Positions 1,271 to 17,355 of a stretch of DNA of 20,002 nt are shown piece by piece. The first letter of the stretch is position 1. Each line of letters starts with the position of its first letter. Source of the DNA: a virus. The notes beneath the pieces were generated by a model. That model searched no databases. It was not told where the DNA came from and saw only the letters and a program-made list of their open reading frames with translations. The translations under genes and the position numbers were made by a program. The stretch lies in IMG/VR virus record IMGVR_UViG_3300046007_000587, positions 1 through 20,002 of that record. One strand, 5' to 3'.

Positions 1271-2434
1271 GTGGCTAATTTTGGCTGGGGTTCAAACCCG
1301 TGGGGCTACGACGGTTGGGGTGGTGTTGGTGTTGAAAGAGCGTTAACAGGCGTTGCTGCGTCTGGTAACGTAGGTTCAGTTACTGAAACAAACAACCCAA
1401 CCGAGAATGGTGTAGTTGCTACTGGCGCAGTTGGTTCTGTCACTACCTCTCGTACGGTAGCTCTGACAGGCGTCAGTGCGTCTGGAGCTGTTGGGTCTGT
1501 TACTGAGACAAGTAGCCCAACTGAAGACGGTGTTGTAGCCACAGGTGCAGTTGGTTCTGTCACTACCTCTCGTACCGTTTCTCTCTCAGGCGTATCTGCA
1601 TCTGGTGCAGTTGGTTCTGTCACTGCTTCGCCTTCTCAAACTCTTTCTGGTGTAACTGCATCTGGTGCAGTTGGTGATGTCGTATTTAATTATCAGTTAG
1701 CTGGAGTTGAAGCTTCTGGCGCGGTTGGTTCTGTCTCAGTCGCTGAACGTCAAATAGCTCTTACAGGTGTAGAAGCTAGTGGCGCAGCAGGTGACATTAC
1801 ATTTGCTTTCCCTGTTGACATAACAGGCGTTGCTGGAGCAGGTAGTGTTGATTCAGTTAACGCTAGTGTTTCTATAACCCTTTCCGGTGTCCAAGCCGCA
1901 GCCGCTGTTGGCGATGTAACTGAAGAAGTAAATCCGGCTGAAGATGGTGTTATAGCTGTTGGGCAAGTAGGTGTAGTTGGGGCTGAGGTCGCTATCGAGC
2001 TGTCTGGTATAGAAGCAGCGGGTGCTGTTGGGAATGTAGAGTTTACTAAGGTTGCGGATCTTACAGGCGTCGAAGCAGCGGGTGCTGTTGGTTCAGTAGT
2101 TCCGTTACCGTTTAGTGGCGTTTCTGGGTCTGGACAAGTAGGGTCTGTTGGTACGACAATTACCGTTAGTTTGTCTGGGGTTGAAGCTTCTGGCGCAGTA
2201 GGTAATTTATCTTACACAGTGCCTGTTAGTATTACCGGTGTTGCTGCACTAGGCAATACTGGAGTTATAACAGTAGGACCAACACAAATTGGTTTAAGTG
2301 GTGTTCAGGCACAAGGTAGCGTAGGTTCAGTTGGAGTCTTATACTGGGGCTTAATTAATAATTACCAAGATCCTCAATTTGGAACAGTTAACAACTACCA
2401 AGATGCCGATTGGGATTTAGTTGAAACGGAGTAA
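1271..2434 (+). CDS. Repeat-rich phage structural protein (GV.ASGAVGSV repeats)
   Basis: A 387-aa protein with a GTG start preceded by AGGGG. Residues 4-20 are a Trp/Gly segment (FGWGSNPWGYDGWGG). From about residue 24 to 356 there are about 17 units of 15-21 residues with the core (L/I)(T/S)GV.A.GAVG.V, separated by variable 3-8 residue linkers; such alternation suggests a stacked beta-solenoid or fibrous shaft. The C-terminus carries a short doubled element, NNYQDPQFGTV and NNYQDADWDLV. Similar Trp/Asp duplets end many aquatic phage fibre-associated proteins. Two units of the same repeat also end the protein encoded at 10967-11740. The gene lies directly upstream of the tail fibre, so a fibre or fibre-connector role is likely but unproven. 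Confidence 0.8.
   Translation: MANFGWGSNPWGYDGWGGVGVERALTGVAASGNVGSVTETNNPTENGVVATGAVGSVTTSRTVALTGVSASGAVGSVTETSSPTEDGVVATGAVGSVTTSRTVSLSGVSASGAVGSVTASPSQTLSGVTASGAVGDVVFNYQLAGVEASGAVGSVSVAERQIALTGVEASGAAGDITFAFPVDITGVAGAGSVDSVNASVSITLSGVQAAAAVGDVTEEVNPAEDGVIAVGQVGVVGAEVAIELSGIEAAGAVGNVEFTKVADLTGVEAAGAVGSVVPLPFSGVSGSGQVGSVGTTITVSLSGVEASGAVGNLSYTVPVSITGVAALGNTGVITVGPTQIGLSGVQAQGSVGSVGVLYWGLINNYQDPQFGTVNNYQDADWDLVETE
1340..2338 (+). repeat. Array of about 17 coding repeats of the GV.ASGAVGSV type
   Basis: About 17 units of roughly 45-75 bases encode the core GV.ASGAVGSV. The first units also form a higher-order repeat: bases 1381-1500 and 1501-1620 align without gaps at a period of 120, including a long identical stretch ttggttctgtcactacctct at 1431-1450 and 1551-1570. 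Later units are diverged at DNA level. Confidence 0.8.
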
Positions 2435-4733: not shown

Positions 4734-5486
4734 ATGAGTTTACCTAAAAAAGTTTTTGTAGCCACTCCTATGTACGGAGGGGCTTGTTTTGTACCTTATG
4801 TAACAGGGATGTTAGATACGCTGCAAACTTTTGTAAATAATAACTATACCTTAATGTTTTCTGCAATAGCTAATGAAAGTTTAATTACTAGAGCAAGAAA
4901 CGAATTAGTAAGGCAGTTTTTAACTACAGATGCTGAGTATCTTTTATTTATAGACGCAGATATTAAGTTTTTAGGTAAAGATGTTTTAAAATTATTGCAA
5001 GCGGATAAAGACATAATTTGCGGGTTATATCCCAAAAAAGTTGTTGATTGGGAACGCGTTGATATAGCTGCAAAACAAGGCTTAACTAATTTAAAAGACT
5101 ACGCGTCCTCTTATGTTGTAAATACGTTAGTTAAAGATTTAGATAAAGTCATTGAGTCTCCTGTTATTGAAATAAAACATGGCGGTACAGGGTTTATGCT
5201 TATAAAACGTCATGTGTTCGATGTATTGGCGCCGCATGTTAAAGATTATGTTGTTTCAACAATACCCACACGGGGTGGAACACAACATCCAAAAATAAAA
5301 GAATTTTTTGCTACAACAATAGAAGACGAAAGTGACTACTTTATGTCCGAGGATTATTATTTTTGTGCTCTATGGAGAAAACATGGGGGGAAGGTATACG
5401 CAGATTTAAGTATCATTTTGTCTCATATGGGAACTTACGAGTATTCAGGTAATTTGATAAGGGGTGGATGTAATCCAACTTTATAA
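4734..5486 (+). CDS. GT-A-fold glycosyltransferase
   Basis: A 250-aa soluble protein. It starts with a strand leading to ATPMYGG (residues 10-16), then ITRARNELVRQFL (51-63) and YLLFIDADIKF (69-79), where D74-A-D76 is the DXD motif that binds Mn2+ and the nucleotide-sugar. A GTGFMLIKRHVF segment and a late SED (205-207) with H231 complete the usual acceptor/catalytic half of this phage group. It transfers a sugar from an activated donor; donor and acceptor are not deducible. There are no membrane segments. The gene is clearly AT-rich: two 60-base samples I counted were 28-32% GC, against 62% in a sample of the lysis gene at 8041. This suggests separate acquisition. It lies between the fibre chaperone and the oxygenases, so modification of fibre or surface glycans is a plausible role. 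Confidence 0.82.
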   Translation: MSLPKKVFVATPMYGGACFVPYVTGMLDTLQTFVNNNYTLMFSAIANESLITRARNELVRQFLTTDAEYLLFIDADIKFLGKDVLKLLQADKDIICGLYPKKVVDWERVDIAAKQGLTNLKDYASSYVVNTLVKDLDKVIESPVIEIKHGGTGFMLIKRHVFDVLAPHVKDYVVSTIPTRGGTQHPKIKEFFATTIEDESDYFMSEDYYFCALWRKHGGKVYADLSIILSHMGTYEYSGNLIRGGCNPTL

Positions 5487-5500: not shown

Positions 5501-6070
5501 ATGTGGTTTTTAGAACCTCGCATAGATGCCCAAGAGACATGGGCATATGCCGATAAAATTCTTACAAAAGAACAATGTGAACAAGTTATTAAATTAGGAG
5601 AGTCCTTATTGCCTGATACCGCAAGCACATCTGGAGGTGTTTGCCCAGATGTGCGAGACAGTAAGGTATCTTGGATATTACCTTCTAAAGAATCCGAGTG
5701 GTTGTTTCGTCATATGACAGATGTGGTGTTAAGCCTTAATAAACAATTTTTTCGATTTGATTTAGAGGGTTTTGGGGAAGGATTTCAATTTACTAAGTAC
5801 GAAGCCCCTGCTGGCAAATACGATGTTCATATAGATAAGTCTTTTGGCAAAAATATACGAAAACTTTCAATTGTTGTGCAGCTTTCAGACCCTACAGAAT
5901 ATGAAGGCGGTGATTTATGTATACAAACATGTAATAACCCTCAATTTGCAAGAAAAGAACAAGGGTTTTTGGTGGCCTTCCCAAGTTATGTATTACATGG
6001 TGTGCAGCCCGTTACTAGCGGCACGCGTTATAGTTTAGTTGCATGGCTTACAGGACCACCATTCAGATGA
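5501..6070 (+). CDS. 2-oxoglutarate/Fe(II)-dependent oxygenase, PKHD (prolyl-4-hydroxylase-like) type
   Basis: A 189-aa protein with a complete double-stranded beta-helix signature: H110-I-D112, distal H166 (YVLHGV) and R176 (TSGTRYS) ten residues later, as expected for 2-oxoglutarate binding. The YEGGDLCI block before the distal His is typical of P4Hc/PKHD hydroxylases. Known members hydroxylate prolyl or lysyl residues, or small substrates, using O2 and 2-oxoglutarate; the substrate here is unknown. There is no signal peptide, so it should act in the host cytoplasm. The gene has its own ribosome binding site and overlaps the next by ATGA. Its base composition is AT-rich in places, like the glycosyltransferase. 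Confidence 0.88.
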   Translation: MWFLEPRIDAQETWAYADKILTKEQCEQVIKLGESLLPDTASTSGGVCPDVRDSKVSWILPSKESEWLFRHMTDVVLSLNKQFFRFDLEGFGEGFQFTKYEAPAGKYDVHIDKSFGKNIRKLSIVVQLSDPTEYEGGDLCIQTCNNPQFARKEQGFLVAFPSYVLHGVQPVTSGTRYSLVAWLTGPPFR

Positions 6071-6678
6071 ACATGCTTACACCCAAAGAAATTTTTGCTC
6101 AGCAAGGCTACGCTCTGGTTAAGGGATTTATATCCAAAGACGTTGCAAGGTTTTTGTACAACTATCTTCTTATTACTGTTCGTGCCGCCCAATTTCAAGG
6201 TGGTGCAAAACACGACACACAAGTTGTTGAGGCATTAAGTGCAGTAAATGGTGATCCTGGTTTTGAAACTTTGCTTTGGAACGTGCATCAACGTATGGAA
6301 GAGTGTACGGGCTTAGAACTTATACCTACCTACTCTTACCGCCGACTTTATAAGCATGGCAACATTCTTGCAAAGCACACGGATCGACCTTCATGTGAAG
6401 TATCAGCAACCATAAAGCTGTCGGATTCTGGCGGGTACAACTGGCCTATTTGGATGGTCGATACGCCTTATGAACTTGAAGATGGCGATGCTGTTATCTA
6501 TCGTGGATGCGATCTTGAACACTGGCGAGAGCCTTGTGAAGGCCCAGCTAACTACGTGATGGGGCAAGTGTTTACGCACTATGTCGATAAAAATGGCCCA
6601 CATACAGCCTATGCTTACGACAAAAATCAACTTAGAGCCAACGTATTTGAAAGCCTAAAAGGTGGGTTTCTTAAATGA
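6067..6678 (+). CDS. 2-oxoglutarate/Fe(II) oxygenase-like protein, second of three
   Basis: A 203-aa protein. The start at 6067 gives an ATGA overlap with the previous stop; an in-frame ATG at 6043 is a less likely alternative. The metal triad is visible: H104-T-D106 (AKHTDRPSCE) and H152 (LEHWRE). The block GDAVIYRGCDLEHWREP is the strand-turn carrying the distal His. The usual Arg or Lys about ten residues after that His is not there (N162). The only nearby basic residue is R154, so 2-oxoglutarate binding may use a different residue. It shows little similarity to the neighbouring oxygenases beyond the motif, so it is not a simple tandem duplicate. Substrate unknown. Confidence 0.78.
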   Translation: MNMLTPKEIFAQQGYALVKGFISKDVARFLYNYLLITVRAAQFQGGAKHDTQVVEALSAVNGDPGFETLLWNVHQRMEECTGLELIPTYSYRRLYKHGNILAKHTDRPSCEVSATIKLSDSGGYNWPIWMVDTPYELEDGDAVIYRGCDLEHWREPCEGPANYVMGQVFTHYVDKNGPHTAYAYDKNQLRANVFESLKGGFLK

Positions 6679-7301
6679 TAAACACTGAGTGGCATTTCCC
6701 ATGCCCCATATACACGGTTGAACGTCCTGATTTTCTACAGTCAGTTAGCCAAGTGTCTGAAGAGTCGTTAGCGGAAAGTCGTAAGACCGAGCAAGTTAAT
6801 GACATCCACCCCGTATTGATGAGCGGCAATTATTTTGCCGATCCTCGTATTGCCCCTTTTAGTCAATTTATAGCCGATACCGCTTGGAATATCCTTCAAG
6901 ACCAAGGTTATGCTATGCAGAATTTTCGCACCTCTTTTATAGAGATGTGGACTCAAGAGCATTACAAAGTGTCTGGCATGGAGCAGCATGTTCATGGGTT
7001 TGGATCGCAGATTGTTGGGTTTTACTTCTTAGAAGCGCCAGAAGGTTCTTCCCGTGTTGTGTTCCACGACCCTCGTCCGGGGAAAATTCCACTTAATCTG
7101 CCAGAACAAAACGTAAGTCAAGCTACCGTAGCAAGTCAAATGATTAACTTTGAGCCTAAGCCGGGGCTTATGATCTTTTCAAATGCTTGGTTGCCGCATT
7201 CGTTCACCCGTCACACCGCAGACAAACCTATCAAGTTTGTTCACTTCAACCTTACCGTACAAGCTGCGCCGCCACTGCCTCCCCCCGCCGAAGTGGTATG
7301 A
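6675..7301 (+). CDS. Putative 2OG-Fe(II) oxygenase of the 2OG-FeII_Oxy_5 type, third of three
   Basis: A 208-aa protein overlapping the previous stop by ATGA. It fits the family recognised by H.H...(S/Q)..G.YFL..P.GS near the middle: H105-V-H107 (EQHVHGFGSQIVGFYFLEAP), then F.DPRP, then PG..I.F..WLPH with H175. The C-terminal strand KFVHFNLTV replaces the more usual R(I/V)S(I/F).FN, with K187 where Arg is common. The N-terminus (W.FPCPIY) is also typical. The last 13 residues are a Pro/Ala-rich tail. Phage members are common in aquatic viromes; their substrates are not established. It ends with ATGA into the next small gene. Confidence 0.78.
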   Translation: MINTEWHFPCPIYTVERPDFLQSVSQVSEESLAESRKTEQVNDIHPVLMSGNYFADPRIAPFSQFIADTAWNILQDQGYAMQNFRTSFIEMWTQEHYKVSGMEQHVHGFGSQIVGFYFLEAPEGSSRVVFHDPRPGKIPLNLPEQNVSQATVASQMINFEPKPGLMIFSNAWLPHSFTRHTADKPIKFVHFNLTVQAAPPLPPPAEVV

Positions 7302-8894: not shown

Positions 8895-10970
8895 GTGCCA
8901 CTCAAAAAGATCCTACTAAAGCCGGGAGTTAATAAAGAAAACACTCGGTATACCAACGAGAATGGTTGGTACATCAGCGACAAAGTGCGCTTTCGCCAAG
9001 GCACTCCCGAAAAGATCGGTGGGTGGGCTAGGATTTCTGCTAATACTTTCCAAGGTGTATGTCGTGCGCTTTGGAATTGGGTGACGCTTGGCTTTCAAAA
9101 TTTGCTAGGAGTTGGAACCAACCTCAAGTATTACATTGAACGGGGTGGAGAATATATTGATGTTACCCCCATCAGGACAACAGTCACTCTTGGCACAGAC
9201 CCTTTTGCAGGAAACGGCACTACAACGGTTACGGTAACCGCTAATTCTCACGGCGCTCTTACCGGCGATTTTGTTACGTTTTCAGGTTCTACTGATACGC
9301 TAGGTCCGGGCGGCACTTCGCTATTTGATGCTGAGTACCAACTTACGGTTGTCAATGCAAACTCTTATACGATCACTACTGCTTCTTCTGTAGCTGCTGG
9401 TTCTTATGGTGGGTCTGCTGTTGTAGCAGCATACCAAATTAACGTAGGCCCAGAAATTGAAGTTCCTCTCAGTGGATGGGGAGGGGGTGGTTGGGGTCTT
9501 GGTACGTGGGGGTTTGGTGTTACTGGGTCAGTAGCACTGCGCTTATGGTCTGCTAATAACTTTGGCGAAGATCTAGTCTTTGGTCCTCGTGGTGGGGCTT
9601 TGTATTACTGGGATGCAGGTAACCTTTCAACTAACCCCGTTGGGCGGGCTGTAAACGCCAATACGATTGGTGGTTCTGTCACATTTGATACGGCTGAGAC
9701 TAATTACTTAACTCTTTCTAACCTGTTGGCTGAAGGTACTGCAATTAAGTTTGAAACTTCTGGGTCGATGCCTTCACCCCTTGTTGCCGGTACAACTTAT
9801 TATTTGCTTAATGTTGATGGTGCTACCGCTCAGCTATCTGCCACACTTGCTGGATCAAAAATTGTTGTGACAACCAACGGTTCGGGGGTTTATATATCTG
9901 AGCTTGTGGATGTGCCGACTATACAAAACTACATTCTTGTTTCAGACACTTCTCGTTTTGTCTTGCTGTTTGGTACGACCGACTACGGTAGTACTACTTT
10001 AGACCCCATGCTGGTGCGGTGGAGTAACCAAGAATCTGTCGTTGATTGGGTACCTTCGTCATTAAACCAAGCGGGATCTGTGCGGTTATCGCATGGTTCT
10101 GAAATTGTTACTGCGCTACAGACACGGCAAGAAATTGTTGTTTGGACTGACTCTTCTCTTTATTCACTTCAATATGTCGGTGCGCCTGTTGTTTGGGCTT
10201 CGCAGCTTCTCGGAGACAATATTTCTATCGTCGGTCAAAACGCCGCAGCAGTTGCTTCCGGCATTGTGTATTGGATGGGGGTAGATAAGTTTTACCGCTA
10301 CGATGGCCGGGTGCAAACACTTCGTTGTGATCTTCGCAGGCATGTATTTAGCAATATTAATACGAGTCAGTATTTGCAAGTTTTTGCCGGGACTAACGAA
10401 GGATTTAATGAGGTCTGGTGGTTTTATTGCTCGGCAGGTTCTAACGTTGTTGATTCGTATGTGGTTTACAACTATGCCGAAGACGTTTGGTATTACGGCT
10501 CGCTTGGGCGTACTGCTTGGATTGACTCCGGTTTACGAGATTACCCCGTAGCTGCTACTTACAACTATAACCTTGTCAACCACGAACAAGGTATTGACGA
10601 CAACGCTACAGAAACACCAACAGCTATCGACGCCTATATTGAATCTGCTGAATTTGATATTGACGATGGCGAGCACTTTGGGTTTGTATGGCGTATGGTG
10701 CCTGACCTGACGTTCCAAGGCTCAACGACTGCGTCGCCTCAAGTCACAATGACGATGTATGGCATGAATGGTTCGGGGTCTGGGTTTAATACTGAAGCGT
10801 CAAAAGCTGTTGCCCGTACTTCGACGGTTACGATTGAGCAGTTTACTAATATTGTTTACACCCGCATTCGTGGTCGTCAGATGATTATGAAGATCGGGTC
10901 TTCAGGGCTTGGAACCACTTGGCAGCTTGGTGCACCACGGATTGATATTAAGCCGGATGGTAGGCGATGA
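8895..10970 (+). CDS. Phage virion structural protein (tail tube/stabilisation type)
   Basis: A 691-aa protein with a GTG start after GAGGTGA. The N-terminal block (PGVNKENTRYTNENGWY...KVRFRQGTPEKIGGW) is a strong signature of a large family in short-tailed aquatic phages, usually annotated as a tail-tube, stabilisation or packaged structural protein. Repeated aromatic/Gly blades through the second half (for example VYWMGVDKFYRYDGR) suggest a beta-propeller-like body. Two small beta modules appear inserted: about 104-174 (TVTVTANSHGALTGDFVTF) and about 256-333 (ending ...TTYYLLNVDG...). Between them, residues 193-209 form a Trp/Gly run, SGWGGGGWGLGTWGFGV. The next gene overlaps by ATGA. Confidence 0.82.
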   Translation: MPLKKILLKPGVNKENTRYTNENGWYISDKVRFRQGTPEKIGGWARISANTFQGVCRALWNWVTLGFQNLLGVGTNLKYYIERGGEYIDVTPIRTTVTLGTDPFAGNGTTTVTVTANSHGALTGDFVTFSGSTDTLGPGGTSLFDAEYQLTVVNANSYTITTASSVAAGSYGGSAVVAAYQINVGPEIEVPLSGWGGGGWGLGTWGFGVTGSVALRLWSANNFGEDLVFGPRGGALYYWDAGNLSTNPVGRAVNANTIGGSVTFDTAETNYLTLSNLLAEGTAIKFETSGSMPSPLVAGTTYYLLNVDGATAQLSATLAGSKIVVTTNGSGVYISELVDVPTIQNYILVSDTSRFVLLFGTTDYGSTTLDPMLVRWSNQESVVDWVPSSLNQAGSVRLSHGSEIVTALQTRQEIVVWTDSSLYSLQYVGAPVVWASQLLGDNISIVGQNAAAVASGIVYWMGVDKFYRYDGRVQTLRCDLRRHVFSNINTSQYLQVFAGTNEGFNEVWWFYCSAGSNVVDSYVVYNYAEDVWYYGSLGRTAWIDSGLRDYPVAATYNYNLVNHEQGIDDNATETPTAIDAYIESAEFDIDDGEHFGFVWRMVPDLTFQGSTTASPQVTMTMYGMNGSGSGFNTEASKAVARTSTVTIEQFTNIVYTRIRGRQMIMKIGSSGLGTTWQLGAPRIDIKPDGRR

Positions 10971-11740
10971 CCACCCTTCAGCAACCTGCTGTTCCAAACC
11001 TACCGTTTGCCTCACAAGACTACTCGGCTGTTTATCAAGAGCAGTTCAATAACGTTCTTCGCCTATATTTCAACCGCCTTAATAACAACCTTCTTTCGCT
11101 TTTAGGTGACTACGGGGGCCGGTTTTTAGATTTCCCGCATGGATCATTTTACGATGTTGGGGATCAAGTAGCCGTTTCAACCACCACTGCTTACCCTGTC
11201 AGACTTAACGCTACGGCTTATTCCAATGCAGTTAGGGTTGTTGATAACACCAAGATAACTTTTACATACCCAGGTACATATAACATTCAGTTCAGCGTTC
11301 AGATGGCTAATTACGACAACGCTGAACAAGATATTGATATTTGGTTTGCCAAAAACGGTGCGTATATTCCTGACTCAAACACTCGGTTTGGGCAAATCCC
11401 TCGTAAAAATCCTGGTATCCCGTCACATATGGTGGGTACGGTTAACTTGTTTGTGGATGTGGTAGCCGACGATTATGTTGAGTTGTATTGGCGTACCAGC
11501 GATCTTGACACTTATATTCAGTACTACGGCTCTGGTACTTCCCCCACTCGCCCTGCTATACCTTCGGTCATTCTCACTGTATCATTCGTGTCAGCATCGA
11601 CCACGGCTGTAAGTAATATTCTGTCTGTAGGGCTGTCCGGTGTATCTAGTACGGGGGTTACAGGTACTGTTTCTAATGGACATTCTGTCGCTTCATCAGG
11701 TGCTTCAGGCACAGGTGCAGTAGGCACCGTTACTCCTTGA
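10967..11740 (+). CDS. Phage structural protein with jelly-roll-like domain and C-terminal repeats
   Basis: A 257-aa protein starting MTTLQQPAVPNLPFASQDYS. Residues 13-55 hold a helix with RLYFNRLNN and a Gly/Asp turn. Residues about 75-215 are beta-rich, with TYPGTYNIQFSVQMANYDN, DIDIWFAKNGAYIPDSNTR and DDYVELYWRTSD, a pattern like C1q/TNF-type jelly rolls in phage fibre or head-decoration proteins. The last about 38 residues are two units of the repeat found in the 387-aa protein near the window start (VGLSGVSSTGVTGTVS and VASSGASGTGAVGTVT). The start overlaps the preceding stop by ATGA. It is probably a tail or fibre component, by context. Confidence 0.78.
   Translation: MTTLQQPAVPNLPFASQDYSAVYQEQFNNVLRLYFNRLNNNLLSLLGDYGGRFLDFPHGSFYDVGDQVAVSTTTAYPVRLNATAYSNAVRVVDNTKITFTYPGTYNIQFSVQMANYDNAEQDIDIWFAKNGAYIPDSNTRFGQIPRKNPGIPSHMVGTVNLFVDVVADDYVELYWRTSDLDTYIQYYGSGTSPTRPAIPSVILTVSFVSASTTAVSNILSVGLSGVSSTGVTGTVSNGHSVASSGASGTGAVGTVTP
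11627..11734 (+). repeat. Two units of the GV.ASGAVGSV-type repeat
   Basis: Two coding units with the same core (L/S)SG(V/A)(S)(S/G)TG.(T/V)GTV as the array at 1340-2338, here as a C-terminal tag on an unrelated domain. Confidence 0.7.
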
Positions 11741-11751
11741 TTGGATAAGTT

Positions 11752-13890
11752 ATGTCTACAAGTAATCTTACCTTAGACTTGTTTAAAGAAGCTGCTTCCG
11801 TAGCTGAACAAGATTACAGAAACGGAAAAGTAAACACACCGTTTGGGCCAATGTTTGCTCGTGATGCTGCGTTTGTTTTTAGCGAGCTAAATAAGTTAGG
11901 TATTACTGATCCGTCTAAACTGCAAGCCAAGGTTGTAGGTTCTGGCGAAAGCCAAAAAGTTCAGTACATAGACGGAACTACAGGTAAAGTAATCCAAGAA
12001 AAGCTCACAAGTCAGGGTGGTTCCTTAGATTTAGGTGGTAACAAAGATGTTAATGGCTATGACCTTTTCATGGCCCCCAACGAACAAGGTGGGCTAACAC
12101 TTCAAAGTACCCCACCAAAAAAGTCTAGCTGGGTAAAATTTAGGGATGACGTACTAAAACCTGCGGCGGCAATTGCAGCAGCTTATTTTCTCGGCCCAGA
12201 AGTACTTGCGGCGTTAGAGGGTACAGGGGCTGCTGCTGCCGGGACTGCCGCTGCCGGAGAAGGTATTTTAGCTGGTACTACCGCAGCAGATATTATGGCT
12301 GCAACTGAAGCTCTTGAAGCAGCAAGTAATGCAACACTTGCTGGAGGTGCTAGTGCTAGCGCTTTTCCTGCTGCTTCCGGTGTTCCCGCTGCGCTTACTG
12401 GTGCTGAACTTGCCGCTGCTGGTGCTGGTGCTGAACTTGCCGCTACTGCTCCTGCCGCCGCTGGTACGGCTGCTCCTGCGTCTGTGACTGTTGCTGCTAC
12501 TCCGATTTCTGCTACGCCTTCTCTTCTTCCTGCTGTCGCTGGGGCGGGTGTGTTGGGAGCCCTTACTCTTCCTAATAGTCCTGAAGCTGTCATGCAGGGA
12601 GCGGGGACTACAACGACTACGACTCCTGAAATAACAGAACAGCAACGACTAGAAAAATTACAACAAGGGGCTGCTGCCGGGGCTGGTGCCTCTATCCTTA
12701 AACAATTAGCAGACGCTACTGGACTCAGTGAAGATACGCTTAAGATGTTGCTCCAGGGCGGTGCTGGTTTACTTGGTGGTGCAGCAAGTTATTACGATGC
12801 CAAAGCAGCTAGAGAAGCTGCAAGAGGTGCTTCATTTGCACCAAGTTCTGGACTTAAAGCAGTAACAGGTAAAGGTGGGGCTACTGGCTTTAAGAAAGCT
12901 GCGTCGGGCGGTGTGATGAGTGTGCTCAACGAAAAAGGCCCAGAGGATTATGGTATTGAGTCTTTGTTAGACCGTGAAATGTTCATGGAAGCTAACATGC
13001 CTGCGGGAGAAAATACTCAATACGATATATACGGCAACATGATTATGCCAGACCCTTATTTGCGCTCTATGACTGTGGGGGAAACAGATCAAACTGAAAG
13101 AGATGCGATGAGGGAATATTACAAAAATCCTGAAAACGAAAAATTAAGTTATGACATACGCAAAAATTTGGAAGATGCGGTAATTGCTAGAGGTGGGATG
13201 GGCGAAATAGATGTTCAAGAAACTTTACGAAATATCTATAATACCCCAGAAGGACAAAATATATTTTTTAATTATACAGATCAGCTTAAATACGCTCCTT
13301 CAGACGCTACAGAATTAATATTAAAAGACATTGGGTTAGATGCAAGAGAAGCTGAAGGGTTTACTCCTGATACAAACAGTTTTGTACCACGCTTAGCTTA
13401 TGATTTATCTAATTTTGATCAAAGCAATCCAAAAATAGGTCAAGCGCTTGAAAGAGAAATGCTTAAATTAATTGACCCTAACGCTCCCCGCACATTTTTC
13501 CGTGATTACAACCAAAAAGATTTCACAGAAGTTCCTAATATAGGTGGTGGCGGCGGTGAAGGTAGTGGTGGCAGCGGCAGCGGTGGGGGTGGTGCTGCTG
13601 GTGGAGTAGCTTCTCTTATACCTAGTCGTATGGCACGGGGGCGCTACTTGGATGGACACAGCGATGGTATGGCTGATAAAGTACCTGCAAGTATCGAAGG
13701 CAGGCGTCCCGCTGCGCTAAGTGATGGTGAGTTCGTGATCCCTGCCGACGTTGTCAGCCACTTGGGTAACGGCAATTCAAACGCTGGTGCTAAACGTTTG
13801 TATGAAATGATGGATCGTATTCGCGGTGCTCGCACTGGAAACACTAAGCAGGGCAAGCAAATCAACCCTAATAAATTTCTGCCGAGGTAA
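11752..13890 (+). CDS. Large internal/structural virion protein with conserved C-terminal domain
   Basis: A 712-aa protein. Residues 1-110 are mixed alpha/beta. About 125-290 are very Ala/Gly-rich with hydrophobic helices. About 300-350 contain an Ala-rich helix. Residue 386 begins GGVMSV. About 400-600 form an acidic, AT-rich module rich in Tyr, Asn and Asp. A Gly/Ser linker (about 600-622) leads to the C-terminal domain: GGVASLIPSRMARG, then DGMADKVPASIEGRRPAALSDGEFVIPADVVSHLGNG and AKRLYEMMDRIRGARTG in part. The latter block is highly conserved in large virion proteins of aquatic phages. Ala/Gly-rich hydrophobic stretches fit an ejected internal protein able to enter a membrane, but this is inferred. 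Start by GGATAAG upstream. Confidence 0.72.
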   Translation: MSTSNLTLDLFKEAASVAEQDYRNGKVNTPFGPMFARDAAFVFSELNKLGITDPSKLQAKVVGSGESQKVQYIDGTTGKVIQEKLTSQGGSLDLGGNKDVNGYDLFMAPNEQGGLTLQSTPPKKSSWVKFRDDVLKPAAAIAAAYFLGPEVLAALEGTGAAAAGTAAAGEGILAGTTAADIMAATEALEAASNATLAGGASASAFPAASGVPAALTGAELAAAGAGAELAATAPAAAGTAAPASVTVAATPISATPSLLPAVAGAGVLGALTLPNSPEAVMQGAGTTTTTTPEITEQQRLEKLQQGAAAGAGASILKQLADATGLSEDTLKMLLQGGAGLLGGAASYYDAKAAREAARGASFAPSSGLKAVTGKGGATGFKKAASGGVMSVLNEKGPEDYGIESLLDREMFMEANMPAGENTQYDIYGNMIMPDPYLRSMTVGETDQTERDAMREYYKNPENEKLSYDIRKNLEDAVIARGGMGEIDVQETLRNIYNTPEGQNIFFNYTDQLKYAPSDATELILKDIGLDAREAEGFTPDTNSFVPRLAYDLSNFDQSNPKIGQALEREMLKLIDPNAPRTFFRDYNQKDFTEVPNIGGGGGEGSGGSGSGGGGAAGGVASLIPSRMARGRYLDGHSDGMADKVPASIEGRRPAALSDGEFVIPADVVSHLGNGNSNAGAKRLYEMMDRIRGARTGNTKQGKQINPNKFLPR
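13884..13890 (+). promoter_or_regulatory. Shine-Dalgarno GAGGTAA containing the upstream stop
   Basis: GAGGTAA ends two bases before the ATG at 13893; its TAA stops the preceding gene. Confidence 0.55.
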
Positions 13891-13892
13891 TC

Positions 13893-15746
13893 ATGGCAAT
13901 TGATGTTGCAAAGCTTAAAGCAGCAGCGGCGGGGTCTGAACAAGACAAAGTTAATTGGTATGCAGATCGTATCCAAGAGGGTATGACTGATGCTCAGATT
14001 GCTGCTGCGGTAGATAAAGCGTTAGGTACAAAGTACAGTACTTCCGGTGCTACTGATCCAGATTGGAATTACCTCCAACAAAAAGCTGCTGAGCAAGTTG
14101 TTAAAGAAACATCTAAAAGCAGTGTAAAAGATAAAGCCACTGCATATAACCAGCTTTATCAAGGGGCTGGCCTTACTAATGATGAGATCCAACAAGCAAT
14201 CGTTAACGCTGCTGGAAAACAAGACCCCAACGACATTCGTGCACTGCTTGGGATCGCCGGAGCACAACGCGCTTCCGCTCTACCGTCTGGAGCGGATAAG
14301 GCAACTTATGTAAAACAAATGCTTGGGTATGGATATACCCCTGATGAAATTGCTAACTACATAAATACTGGGGTAGGGCAGCAATCCGATGCAGATATGA
14401 GGGCTCTTTTTGGGCTTGCTAATGTAAACCTTCCTACGTATTTACAACCAAAAGTAGATACAGGCGCAACGTTTAAACCCATAGAAGGTGGTGCAGGTGT
14501 AGCTGTTACTGGAGAGTCTGGATTACGCGAAGGTTATGCGCCTTATGTTCAAGACTTTTTGCAGCGGGCATCTGCTTTACTTGCTAGGCGTGACGCAATA
14601 GATCCTAAGACAGGAGAACCTTTATTTACTGGGCCTCAGTTTGGTACGACATATGGCACCGATACATCTAAAACACTTAGCGATTTACAAACACGCCGCG
14701 AATCCATGATGTCAGGTGACAAAGCGTATACACCGTTTAAATACTCGTTTGCTCCTAAACCTGCCGCAGCAGGTGGAGTGATGTCCTTGGTTGATAGGTA
14801 TCAAACAGGTGGTGACGTTAGTAGTGGTGCAACTACAGGTATGCAGGGTAGCCAAGTAGTGCCTTCAACTTTTACTGCTCCAACTGACGGATATTCCGCT
14901 ACAACTTATACTTCAGGGTATACGGCACCGACTGATATATACAAAGGTCCAGGAGATGCTGGCATTACGGCGGGTACTGCCACTTTTGATACTACTGCGC
15001 GTGATCGGTTGATGAACCCCTATATGTCAGGAGTTGTTGATCCTGCTGCGCGTGAAGCCAAACGTCAGTCTCAAATACAAGGCATGACTAATGCTGCTAA
15101 GTTTGCACAAGCTGGTGCGTTTGGTGGTACTAGAAATGTTCTTGCAGGTGCAGAATTACAGCGCAATCTTGCTACACAGCTTGGTGACATTTATGGGCGT
15201 GGACAGAAAGAAGCCTACGATGCTGCACAAAGGGCGTTTGAAGCCGAGCAAGGGCGTGCGCTTACGGCAGGTGTTGAAACCGAACGTGCTAGACAAGAAG
15301 CAGGAAGGCAAGGACTTTCTGGTGCAGAAGCCGCAGCACGGTTTGGTCTTGACGCAAATAAATTAACCGAACAATCCAGCCAATTTGGTGCTCAGTACGG
15401 ACTCAATGTTGCAACCACTGCTGCTGACTATGAACAAAGAGCGCGGCAGCTCCAGCAACAAGCTGAAGAAGCTCAAGCCAGAGGCGATCAGTTTGCTGCT
15501 GATCTTGCGCTAAGACAACTTCAAGAAGCTAACAATGCAGCAGCGGCTACTCGTGCGTTTGAGTACCAACAAGCTAGAGACACGTACCTTGACCCTTTCC
15601 GTGAGCTTAGCTACGCAAGTTCGTATCTTACTGGGTTGCCGATTAAGGCTGGAGACACGGGAATTAGTCCTCTAGCAGAGTCGCTTGTAGGTTCAGCTTC
15701 CGGTATTGCTCTTCTAAAGAAAGCTCTTGGTCTTCCTGATAATTAG
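13893..15746 (+). CDS. Large helical virion protein with three N-terminal helical repeats
   Basis: A 617-aa protein. The first 180 residues hold three repeats of a helix-turn-helix-like unit with the pattern DK...Y....G.T.DEI...I..A.G at about 18-45, 80-108 and 135-162. The second and third are followed by (D/A)(I/M)RAL(L/F)G(I/L)A. Residue 294 begins GGVMSLVDRYQTGGD, echoing a motif in the preceding protein. Residues 315-360 are Thr/Tyr/Gly-rich (three copies of a TAPTD-type element). From about 380 to 590 the protein is a long Gln/Ala/Arg/Glu-rich helix likely to form a coiled coil. The composition fits an internal or ejection protein. I do not recognise a catalytic domain. Confidence 0.7.
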   Translation: MAIDVAKLKAAAAGSEQDKVNWYADRIQEGMTDAQIAAAVDKALGTKYSTSGATDPDWNYLQQKAAEQVVKETSKSSVKDKATAYNQLYQGAGLTNDEIQQAIVNAAGKQDPNDIRALLGIAGAQRASALPSGADKATYVKQMLGYGYTPDEIANYINTGVGQQSDADMRALFGLANVNLPTYLQPKVDTGATFKPIEGGAGVAVTGESGLREGYAPYVQDFLQRASALLARRDAIDPKTGEPLFTGPQFGTTYGTDTSKTLSDLQTRRESMMSGDKAYTPFKYSFAPKPAAAGGVMSLVDRYQTGGDVSSGATTGMQGSQVVPSTFTAPTDGYSATTYTSGYTAPTDIYKGPGDAGITAGTATFDTTARDRLMNPYMSGVVDPAAREAKRQSQIQGMTNAAKFAQAGAFGGTRNVLAGAELQRNLATQLGDIYGRGQKEAYDAAQRAFEAEQGRALTAGVETERARQEAGRQGLSGAEAAARFGLDANKLTEQSSQFGAQYGLNVATTAADYEQRARQLQQQAEEAQARGDQFAADLALRQLQEANNAAAATRAFEYQQARDTYLDPFRELSYASSYLTGLPIKAGDTGISPLAESLVGSASGIALLKKALGLPDN

Positions 15747-15750
15747 GTGA
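15744..15750 (+). promoter_or_regulatory. Shine-Dalgarno TAGGTGA overlapping the upstream stop
   Basis: The TAG stop of the preceding gene opens TAGGTGA, which ends six bases before the ATG at 15757. Confidence 0.55.
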
Positions 15751-15756
15751 ACAGAT

Positions 15757-17355
15757 ATGGCACAAATACCTTTTCCCCCAGGAGGACCGCAGGTTCAAGC
15801 GGCGCTACAAAATCCTTCTCGGTTCCCTGATCAAAAGCTGCAAGCCTACGCGCAAGGTCAACAGCCTACAGGACAGGTGCCACCACCACTAGCTGCTAAT
15901 GAGCTAACAATACGTAACGCTCAACGCCAAGCAGCTTCTAGACAGCAAGCTATGCAAAACGACCCGTCAAAAAGCCCAACGACATTCCAGCAGCTTCAGG
16001 CTAGAGAACAAGCCCTTGCTCAGAAAGAACAGCAGCTTGGTGTGATGGGTGCGCTCATGGCTAAAAAAGCCCAAGACATGCAAGCCCGTGAGCAAGGTAT
16101 TGCTGCTCTTCCCATGCCGCAAGATATGTTTACTGCTATGGATGGAGGGATTGTGTTTAGCGGCGGCGGTAATGTTGAAGGCTACGCTAGCCGTGGGTTG
16201 GTAGCACCTGATTTGGGTGGGTTTAATGAAGATCGTCCTTCTTTTTCAGTACCTGCTAGCGCTTCCAGAAAGTCAAAAGAAGATTTAGAAGAAGAGGACA
16301 TACTTGCTCGGTTGTTAGATCCTGCTGAACGGTTAGCTGCGCTTTCTAAAGTATCTACACTTAGCAAAGAAGATAGAGAAAAAATAAAAGCTGAACGCAA
16401 GAAAGAGCTTGAAGAACAATACAGCAGATACGAACAAGGTATTGCTGGTCTTGCTGAAGAAGAAGCTGCGGCTATTCGCGGTAAAAAGGGTGATTTCTTA
16501 ACAGGTTTTCTTTCGGGCATACCAGAGCGTGGGGCTGGTGGTCGGCGTATATCCGATGTGCTGTTAGGTGGGGTTAAAGGTCTTGCAGCGCAACAAAAAG
16601 CCGAAGAGGAAAGAGAGACCAAGGCTAATATGCTTATTGCAGCAGCTAAACGTAAACAAGCTGAAGCAAGGTTTGCTGAAGAACGTGGGCGCGATGATAT
16701 TGCTAAGAAAGCCACAGACGAAGCGCAAGCACTACTTGATAAAGCTTTTGGCAGGGAAAGAGAAGTTGAGACGCTTGCTACCGAAGCTGCTAGAGCCGGT
16801 GCTACTTACTTGTCTGGTAAAGATAAAGCCGCATCTCAAGCTGCGCTAAGAGAACGTGCACTAGAGTTAAAGCAACAACAACTATCTATCAATGAAGCTT
16901 TAGCCCAAGGACGTATTAACCAGATGCAAGCTCAGGCGCAGATGGCTGGGATTACCGCAGAACTTAGAGGGTTAGCTGTTCAAAATGCAGCATTACAAGC
17001 GCAGTCGGGTATGTTGCAAGCACAGTCTGGTGCTATGGATAGGGTAGAAAGAACACTCCAAAATAATATTGCGTATGTTAAAGCAGAAACCGATATTTCT
17101 AGATTGTTGGCTAAAGATAAACTTAGCCCCGAAGATGACAAAAAATTAGATACGTTGATAGCAAGAAGGAACGCTATACGGACTGAGACTGAAGCTAGAT
17201 TTGGGTTACGACAACCAAGCGCATCCTCTGGTACCACTGTCCCTGCTAACTTACCTAAAGAAGTTAAAACCAAAGACGGTAAGACTTATACTAGACCGCC
17301 AGGATTTTCTGATGAACAATGGGCGCAATACGTAAAAGAGCAAGGTACTAAATAA
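15757..17355 (+). CDS. Coiled-coil virion/internal protein
   Basis: A 532-aa protein. The N-terminus is Pro/Gln-rich (QIPFPPGGPQVQAALQNPS). Residues 70-115 are a Gln/Ala/Glu helix. Residues 128-155 carry MDGGIVFSGGGN and a Gly-rich turn. Long Glu/Lys/Arg/Ala helices then run from about 170 to 470, broken by a Gly-rich loop (DFLTGFLSGIPERGAGG) near 247-263. The C-terminus has KTKDGKTYTRPPGFSDEQW, a compact motif that resembles the S-P-x-E-W-L repeats at the start of the next protein. No catalytic site is visible. It is likely a structural or ejection protein together with its neighbours. Its TAA overlaps the ATG of the next gene by one base. Confidence 0.68.
   Translation: MAQIPFPPGGPQVQAALQNPSRFPDQKLQAYAQGQQPTGQVPPPLAANELTIRNAQRQAASRQQAMQNDPSKSPTTFQQLQAREQALAQKEQQLGVMGALMAKKAQDMQAREQGIAALPMPQDMFTAMDGGIVFSGGGNVEGYASRGLVAPDLGGFNEDRPSFSVPASASRKSKEDLEEEDILARLLDPAERLAALSKVSTLSKEDREKIKAERKKELEEQYSRYEQGIAGLAEEEAAAIRGKKGDFLTGFLSGIPERGAGGRRISDVLLGGVKGLAAQQKAEEERETKANMLIAAAKRKQAEARFAEERGRDDIAKKATDEAQALLDKAFGREREVETLATEAARAGATYLSGKDKAASQAALRERALELKQQQLSINEALAQGRINQMQAQAQMAGITAELRGLAVQNAALQAQSGMLQAQSGAMDRVERTLQNNIAYVKAETDISRLLAKDKLSPEDDKKLDTLIARRNAIRTETEARFGLRQPSASSGTTVPANLPKEVKTKDGKTYTRPPGFSDEQWAQYVKEQGTK

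Follow-up and report, generated by a model that had tools for sequence, protein, structure and literature searches.

A 20-residue array repeat recurs as a C-terminal tag on a needle-like tail-tip protein of an uncultured phage

Introduction

The window analysed here is the whole stretch of a 20,002-base IMG/VR virus record from an uncultured phage. On its plus strand, which also carries the nozzle-like gene and the three large genes described below, it encodes a 387-aa protein that contains a long array of short repeats (1271..2434) and, well downstream, a 257-aa virion protein (10967..11740). The first-pass annotation, made from the DNA alone, had claimed that this second protein, otherwise unrelated to the first, ends in the same repeat, and had offered docking between two virion parts or transfer by recombination as explanations. 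The locus thus raises the question of whether the repeat is truly shared and, if so, what it does at the end of the 257-aa protein and how it came to be there.

Results

The array repeat at the C-terminus of the 257-aa protein

The array gene, delimited by its ORF, its repeat units and its relatives, contains 17 units of type A between constant ends (~1337-2341), as revealed by a unit search and by comparison with relatives. The type A unit has a G-V-x-A-x-G-x-V-G-x-V core repeated about every 20 aa, and both the core and the spacing are found at the C-terminus of the 257-aa protein (...VGLSGVSSTGVTGTVSNGHSVASSGASGTGAVGTVTP), whose final 37 residues are two repeat units. Their cores, of 17 residues each, begin at residues 221 and 241; unit 1 (11627..11677) reads VGLSGVSSTGVTGTVSN, and unit 2 (11687..11737) reads VASSGASGTGAVGTVTP and runs up to the stop codon. 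The glycines of both units are spaced by exactly 20 residues, the commonest spacing in the arrays of relatives (558 of 843 spacings, with 21 residues in 173 of 843).

Using a weight matrix made from the 17 array units of the window, the two tag units score 20.1 and 13.9 bits and are the top two of 4,997 scanned segments in 17 window proteins, the array being left out. The next-best score is 2.7 bits, setting aside one segment that overlaps the tag (3.5 bits). None of 20,000 composition-keeping shuffles of the 52-residue tail attained the score of the pair; the best single score was matched by 8 of 20,000 such shuffles and by none of 300 shuffles of all 17 window proteins taken. This result confirmed that the array repeat recurs as a C-terminal tag; outside the tag, the 257-aa sequence is, as labelled, unrelated to the array protein. 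When the window ORFs are searched with an HMMER profile of the 17 array units, the tag goes unreported at E<=1, and every unit of the array itself scores higher than the two tag units, at 28.7-43.4 bits; the two should therefore be regarded as diverged members of the repeat. The one-unit tags of relatives, scored with a matrix of 505 distinct units from 66 distinct array ORFs, reach 28.6 (L003), 37.0 (L004) and 40 bits (L195), compared with a median of 34.8 bits for array units.

The tagged protein resembles a tail needle

The preceding gene (8895..10970) matches phrog_3287 and encodes a nozzle-like virion structural protein, probably similar to gp10 of P22. In a phmmer search of PDB sequences it matches 9nwi_Y (E 3.2e-12), a relative present in six chains, and it shares 34-38% identity with proteins of Phage DSL-LC04, Planktothrix phage Pag-Yong1 and Pelagibacter phage HTVC027P. 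Among isolates, its relatives are annotated as "stabilization protein" or "needle head protein", names that we take to correspond to P22 gp10. In P22, genes 10 and 26 are adjacent and are followed by the ejection-protein genes. The 257-aa gene adjoins the nozzle-like gene in the window, starting at 10967, and this order is also found in relatives. Three large genes (712, 617 and 532 aa; 11752..17355), defined as ORFs, occupy the ejection-protein place of P22-type phages, and none of them has a PHROG match.

From its ORF, its relatives, a structure model and its place after the nozzle-like gene, the 257-aa protein can be described as a tail-needle-like virion protein composed of a short N-terminal anchor, a C1q/TNF-like knob and the repeat tag. 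The conserved anchor comprises residues 8-47 (10988..11107), according to alignments and the model, and the jelly-roll body comprises residues ~54-212 (11126..11602), according to the model, Foldseek and VIA. The AlphaFold2 model, based on 30 relatives, places a helix in residues 20-46 and the jelly roll in residues ~58-209, with a mean pLDDT of at least 90 in every ten-residue block of residues 61-210, and the tag is disordered in this monomer model (pLDDT ~31-38). For the jelly roll, Foldseek retrieves BxpB/BclA (E 1.8e-8 to 6.4e-8), and the best VIA rows are F-BclA, Caprin-2 C1q and BxpB (Z 15-16 over 129-137 residues, rmsd 2.0-2.5); the predicted structure of the body has the C1q/TNF jelly-roll fold. 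The Pfam family BclA_C gives 17.0 bits on the 257-aa protein, below its cut-off of 38. The knob of the Sf6 needle does not appear among the best 50 VIA matches listed, which excludes nothing.

In relatives, the same anchor is kept with C1q, 460-aa and short bodies, that is, the bodies have been exchanged, and the anchor probably binds the virion. The profile of the anchor (A4) found no match among PDB sequences at E<=5. The place after the nozzle, the short N-terminal helix and the C1q/TNF-like knob make the protein look like a tail-needle analogue, and we infer a needle or plug-type tip protein with its anchor seated in the nozzle and a trimeric knob. The available part of the work on P22 and Sf6 needles (PMC3741392) describes a virion-binding N-terminus that is kept and completely different C-terminal tips that are exchanged; the Sf6 tip is a TNF-like knob that confers no host specificity in P22, changes of tip slow DNA delivery in P22, and the shafts of P22-like needles have 11-16 heptads. 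Given the P22 gene order stated above, the 257-aa gene is similar to gp26 of P22/Sf6 in its location directly after a gp10-like nozzle gene; it is also similar in its kept N-terminus with exchangeable tips and in its TNF-like knob, to which the Sf6/HS1 needle knob is the closest known counterpart. It differs in that the long coiled-coil shaft of the P22 type is missing, the predicted shaft being a single helix of ~27 residues. Since the anchor lacks a match to solved structures and the shaft is far shorter, we use needle-like as a working term and do not file the protein in the gp26 family.

In the isolates DSL-LC04 and Pag-Yong1, the gene after the nozzle is needle-like, with a body of another kind behind a short N-terminal stretch, and in HTVC027P this gene looks unlike a needle; all three post-nozzle genes are devoid of the window's anchor and tag. 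The 460-aa body (DAFGRxRVSxPYTLFDSQNRYA; phrog_1645; L142-L161, L238-L243 and L391, 6866-8290) is found with the anchor of the window in many contigs, and in the isolate phage DSL-LC04 it stands behind a different N-terminus.

Array orthologues hold either of two repeats

The constant ends of the array protein are WGSNPWGYDGWGG at the N-terminus and YWGLINNYQD...DWDLVETE at the C-terminus. The orthologues identified by these ends hold either of two 20-aa repeats that are unrelated to each other: type A (GVxASGAVGSV), the one found in the window, or type B (ETATGTDAV...), which shows an invariant Glu each 20 residues over a long stretch. In L341-L348, L251 and L257, similar ends are kept and the whole core is swapped between types, the period being constant at 20 aa. 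A search for type-B tags found none in 2.1 million scanned segments, where the matches beyond the seed arrays were more array genes or the weak L222.

The model of the array protein is solenoid-like, with one EEE/E/EEE set per 20 aa (mean pLDDT 48). Foldseek gave nothing significant for it (best E 0.9), and the best match of a second look was the curli subunit CsgA (Z 15.2, rmsd 9.0, for this same model of pLDDT 48). We treat both the solenoid look and the CsgA match only as leads. The array unit was considered as a possible curlin repeat and rejected, as the conserved Asn/Gln of the curlin motif is missing: the 505 distinct units have no conserved N or Q and are composed of G/V/A/S/T.

Two phrog_644 paralogues (152-580 and 792-1250), a family whose function is not known, lie ahead of the array gene in the window, and the arrays of L016, L167 and L172 are likewise preceded by genes resembling this pair. 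Elsewhere in the window, three consecutive genes (5501-7301) match PHROG families named 2OG-Fe(II) oxygenase or ferrochelatase, and a glycosyltransferase-like gene with a weak Anp1 match (4734-5486) is located beside them.

Distribution of the tag in relatives

Three of the 80 loci nearest to the needle anchor profile carry the tag: L002, which is identical to the window, and L003 and L004, with one unit each. In related C1q bodies lacking the tag, the protein stops shortly past the jelly roll. Searching with a degenerate pattern that describes a unit closed by GTVTP-stop, we retrieved 41 contigs. In most of them (37) the needle is of a second form, which joins the needle anchor to a short GDVYRD...LRIK body and ends in 1-3 units. 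C1q needles account for three more (L182, the contig of L003; L183, the contig of L004; and L195), and in the last one (L179) the match is the N-terminal part of a nozzle gene that is split. Among the short needles, which are 80 of the 471 relatives, the tag is found in 12 of 80 loci and 8 of 53 distinct ORFs.

We have also scanned the collected loci, with 13,563 distinct ORFs in all, a set that informs on the location of the tag and not on its frequency, because the tag pattern had served to retrieve part of it. With a threshold of 18 bits, the repeat was confined to arrays (89), needles (37) and nozzle pieces (2), a count in which the needles L178 and L201 landed in the class "other" owing to the motif used. 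Shuffled ORFs gave 0 matches at this threshold in 4.7 million scanned segments. Below it, L027 (719 aa; 17.5 bits) and L026 (12.2 bits) are unit-like. Of the 35 needle ORFs so classed, 33 have their last unit starting 17 residues before the C-terminal end. In most tags of short needles, the units are joined by a GPVGGTIT linker at a fixed 23-aa spacing (e.g., L167, 13650-14036), which is absent from the 61 distinct arrays counted. The phage collection yielded no match to the array gene and none to the tagged short needle. A search of genome contigs gave two weak MAG matches (L389, L390).

The nozzle gene is split, with its N-terminal piece tagged, in L016 (10677-12706) and L179 (contig G066:26456-26761), the only splits away from a contig end among 23 records with a nozzle match. 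In both, a piece of ~140 aa ends in the tag and a TGA that overlaps the ATG of the remaining ~535 aa (CCATGA). In L016, the needle is untagged.

The TP-stop endings of the tags are partly built into the GTVTP-stop pattern; the window, L003, L004 and L245 were found without it, and other ends are TMTP (L244, L246) and GTVTAII (L265). A programmed frameshift at the conserved Pro-stop was considered and rejected because the hexamers vary: 33 distinct sites have CCATAA (14), CCTTAA (8), CCTTAG (5), CCATGA (4) and two others (1 each). At the Pro-stop of the window, the +1 frame closes after 8 codons and the -1 frame after 3. In L016, in L179 and in the L004 and L195 needles, all with CCATGA, the -1 frame is that of the next gene, through its overlapping ATG.

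In summary, array proteins and tail-tip proteins share one repeat and are the only places where it occurs in the collected loci; as a tag it consists of 0, 1, 2 or 3 whole units, gained or lost at the extreme C-terminus of two different needle bodies. The tag is a portable tail-tip module.

Tag and array type in relatives

The first-pass annotation had proposed to look in relatives for co-variation of the repeat between the two genes. When a tagged short needle and an array gene are on the same contig, the array is of type A in 23 of 23 records; untagged short needles of 90 aa with an array have type B in 11 of 12. The remaining one, G132, with a type-A-like array (unit spacings of 20 and 22) and an untagged needle, is a counterexample. 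C1q needles with an array are tagged in 3 of 10 records (the window, G002 and G003); the needle tag is absent from the other seven (G010, G013, G014, G015, G016, G097 and G045), and G045 has a nozzle tag in its place. The 460-aa bodies with an array are untagged in 6 of 6 records.

In every tagged record a type-A array is present, or the place of the array is off the contig or borderline. The array gene is missing as a separate gene from 20 of the 41 pattern contigs because these mostly have under ~8 kb of upstream sequence. In the needle/array pairs worked out, the array lies ~8.1-11.9 kb upstream, and G050, G067 and G069, with 9.6-10.7 kb upstream, are borderline for array absence. For the untagged short needles, 28 records were searched with A3 and 23 of them also with A6, and neither array type was found in 11 of these 23.

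In a nozzle tree of 49 sequences, all 22 tagged short-needle rows are on one side of one fully supported branch. This tree requires three changes of the tag in all, one of them among short needles, and two of array type; the tree of short-needle heads requires three of each. The nozzle tree was made without G045 and G073, and that of the anchors from 35 rows. The heads of G054, G074, G084 and G152 fall among untagged heads and their nozzles inside the tagged clade, suggesting that the head was swapped while the tag stayed with the array type. Either tree offers only 1-3 independent pairs for tag and array type, never significant, so the association is real in counts with few events behind it; given the shared descent, we do not take the strong-looking 2x2 association as proof. 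In the short needles, tag and array type are confounded by descent. Absence of the needle tag while the array persists, one half of the outcome that the first-pass annotation had named as refuting its reading (the other half being no predicted contact), is found in 7 records of the C1q type and 6 of the 460-aa type.

Discussion

What the tag may do

We tentatively favor, as quite possible, a reading in which selection maintains the tag as a module of the tail tip, its rungs stacking either with those of the array or with one another. The C-terminus of the needle would then carry an optional one to three rungs of the 20-residue solenoid-like repeat of the array, and these rungs would form a short beta-solenoid with an exposed edge. 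Array rungs, or the same rungs of neighbouring subunits, could stack like-with-like on this edge, and such stacking may attach or align a putative array fibre at the tail tip. The attachment would be optional, since large needle bodies and the other repeat type appear to manage without the tag. Docking of the tag onto the array is plausible. The confinement of the repeat, outside arrays, to tail-tip proteins of the collected loci is consistent with stacking, and so are the place of the tag at the very end of the protein, the tagged nozzle piece beside an untagged needle in L016, the type-A arrays of the tagged short needles and the existence of a long partner built of the repeat of the tag. 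Against it stand the arrays that persist untagged, that of G132 among them, the type-B arrays without a matching tag, the confounding of tag and array type, the low confidence of the array model and the disorder of the tag in the monomer model.

Curli provide a precedent in which a short surface-held repeat protein seeds a long one by stacking compatible rungs, according to the available part of PMC10192328. The phage of the window is similar to the CsgA/CsgB case described there in that it has a long repeat protein and a short protein with compatible repeats, and it differs from curlin in that its repeat lacks the conserved Asn/Gln and there is no evidence of amyloid. By analogy, the rungs of the needle or of the split nozzle could be a rung-matched socket that captures or nucleates a length-variable solenoid fibre, as CsgB seeds CsgA, and a change in the repeat type of the fibre would be accompanied by loss or change of the socket; we consider this socket unlikely.

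A rather unlikely alternative to stacking on the array is that the rungs have a job of their own at the needle tip, lengthening the trimeric tip in the form of a beta-helix or an extended knob, and tuning membrane contact or the speed of DNA release, in which case the resemblance to the array would reflect a shared fold module and no contact. The constant position of the tag at the distal end of the needle and the existence of arrays without a tag would agree with this, as would the exchangeable needle tips of P22, which affect the rate of DNA delivery in the available part of PMC3741392. However, it does not explain why the short-needle tag is found only beside type-A arrays, though descent could account for that, nor why the unit is present on a nozzle piece in L016 and L179.

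How the tag may have arisen

The tag could also be a by-product of recombination, by which array-type repeats, as sequence that shuffles easily, had their 3' ends with the stop codon pasted onto neighbouring structural genes without any docking function; this is likewise improbable in our opinion. The change by whole units agrees with it, and the single unit of L003 combines the 5' part of window unit 1 (19/21 nt) with the 3' part of window unit 2 (25/30 nt), which, at the sequence level, matches what an expansion or contraction by whole units would leave. The inserted tag of L016 and L179 ends in TP-TGA over the ATG of the rest of the nozzle, the needle bodies and heads are mosaic, and the tag is missing from most array genomes with large needles. 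However, recent copying from the own array is rejected, as the best own-array identity of the tags is 28-34 of 51 nt, no closer than to arrays of other phages, and the amino-acid motif is retained while the codons diverge. Moreover, tags land only on needle or nozzle genes, and the 23-aa spacing of most short-needle tags is not seen in the arrays counted. The earlier suggestion of recombination therefore survives as modular gain and loss (0-3 units, different bodies, split nozzle) and fails, at the DNA level, if taken to mean that the tag was recently copied from the array of that phage.

Convergence of Gly/Ser/Thr/Val-rich C-termini by chance or through low complexity, a reading to which the weakness of the window's two units (they escape HMMER and rank among the weakest tags found) could point, is extremely improbable given the shuffles of the tail, the L004 unit that equals a median array unit (37.0 vs 34.8 bits) and the absence of the repeat from every other kind of ORF among the 13,563, and for the relatives the sequence scores already refute it.

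Relation to known phage modules and significance

Virion-protein modules, such as Ig-like domains, and swappable needle tips are known. Ig-like domains are short beta-rich modules on several unrelated phage virion proteins, often C-terminal, as reported in the available part of PMC9022992, which cites Fraser et al. (2006). The tag is similar to them in being a short, probably beta-rich module on unrelated virion proteins, and different in that its unit is no Ig fold but a 20-aa repeat that, in the same phage, also makes up a separate long array protein. Among the P22/Sf6 needle tips described in the available part of PMC3741392, none has a repeat common to another protein, and a literature search with most subscription journals outside its scope found no needle tip made of units common to a separate array protein, and nothing relevant on needles with tandem repeats or on fragments of the repeat itself. 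The tag is thus a real, modest but testable variant of the known modularity of phage tails.

Docking aside, we have here a needle-like tail-tip protein that is lengthened by whole 20-residue units common to another gene, in a group of phages that exchange array repeats as well as the tips and heads of their needles. If the stacking reading is true, a simple like-with-like code that attaches swappable fibres to the phage tail tip would be legible from sequence alone, and it would help to recognise virion components among the uncharacterised repeat proteins of aquatic phages.
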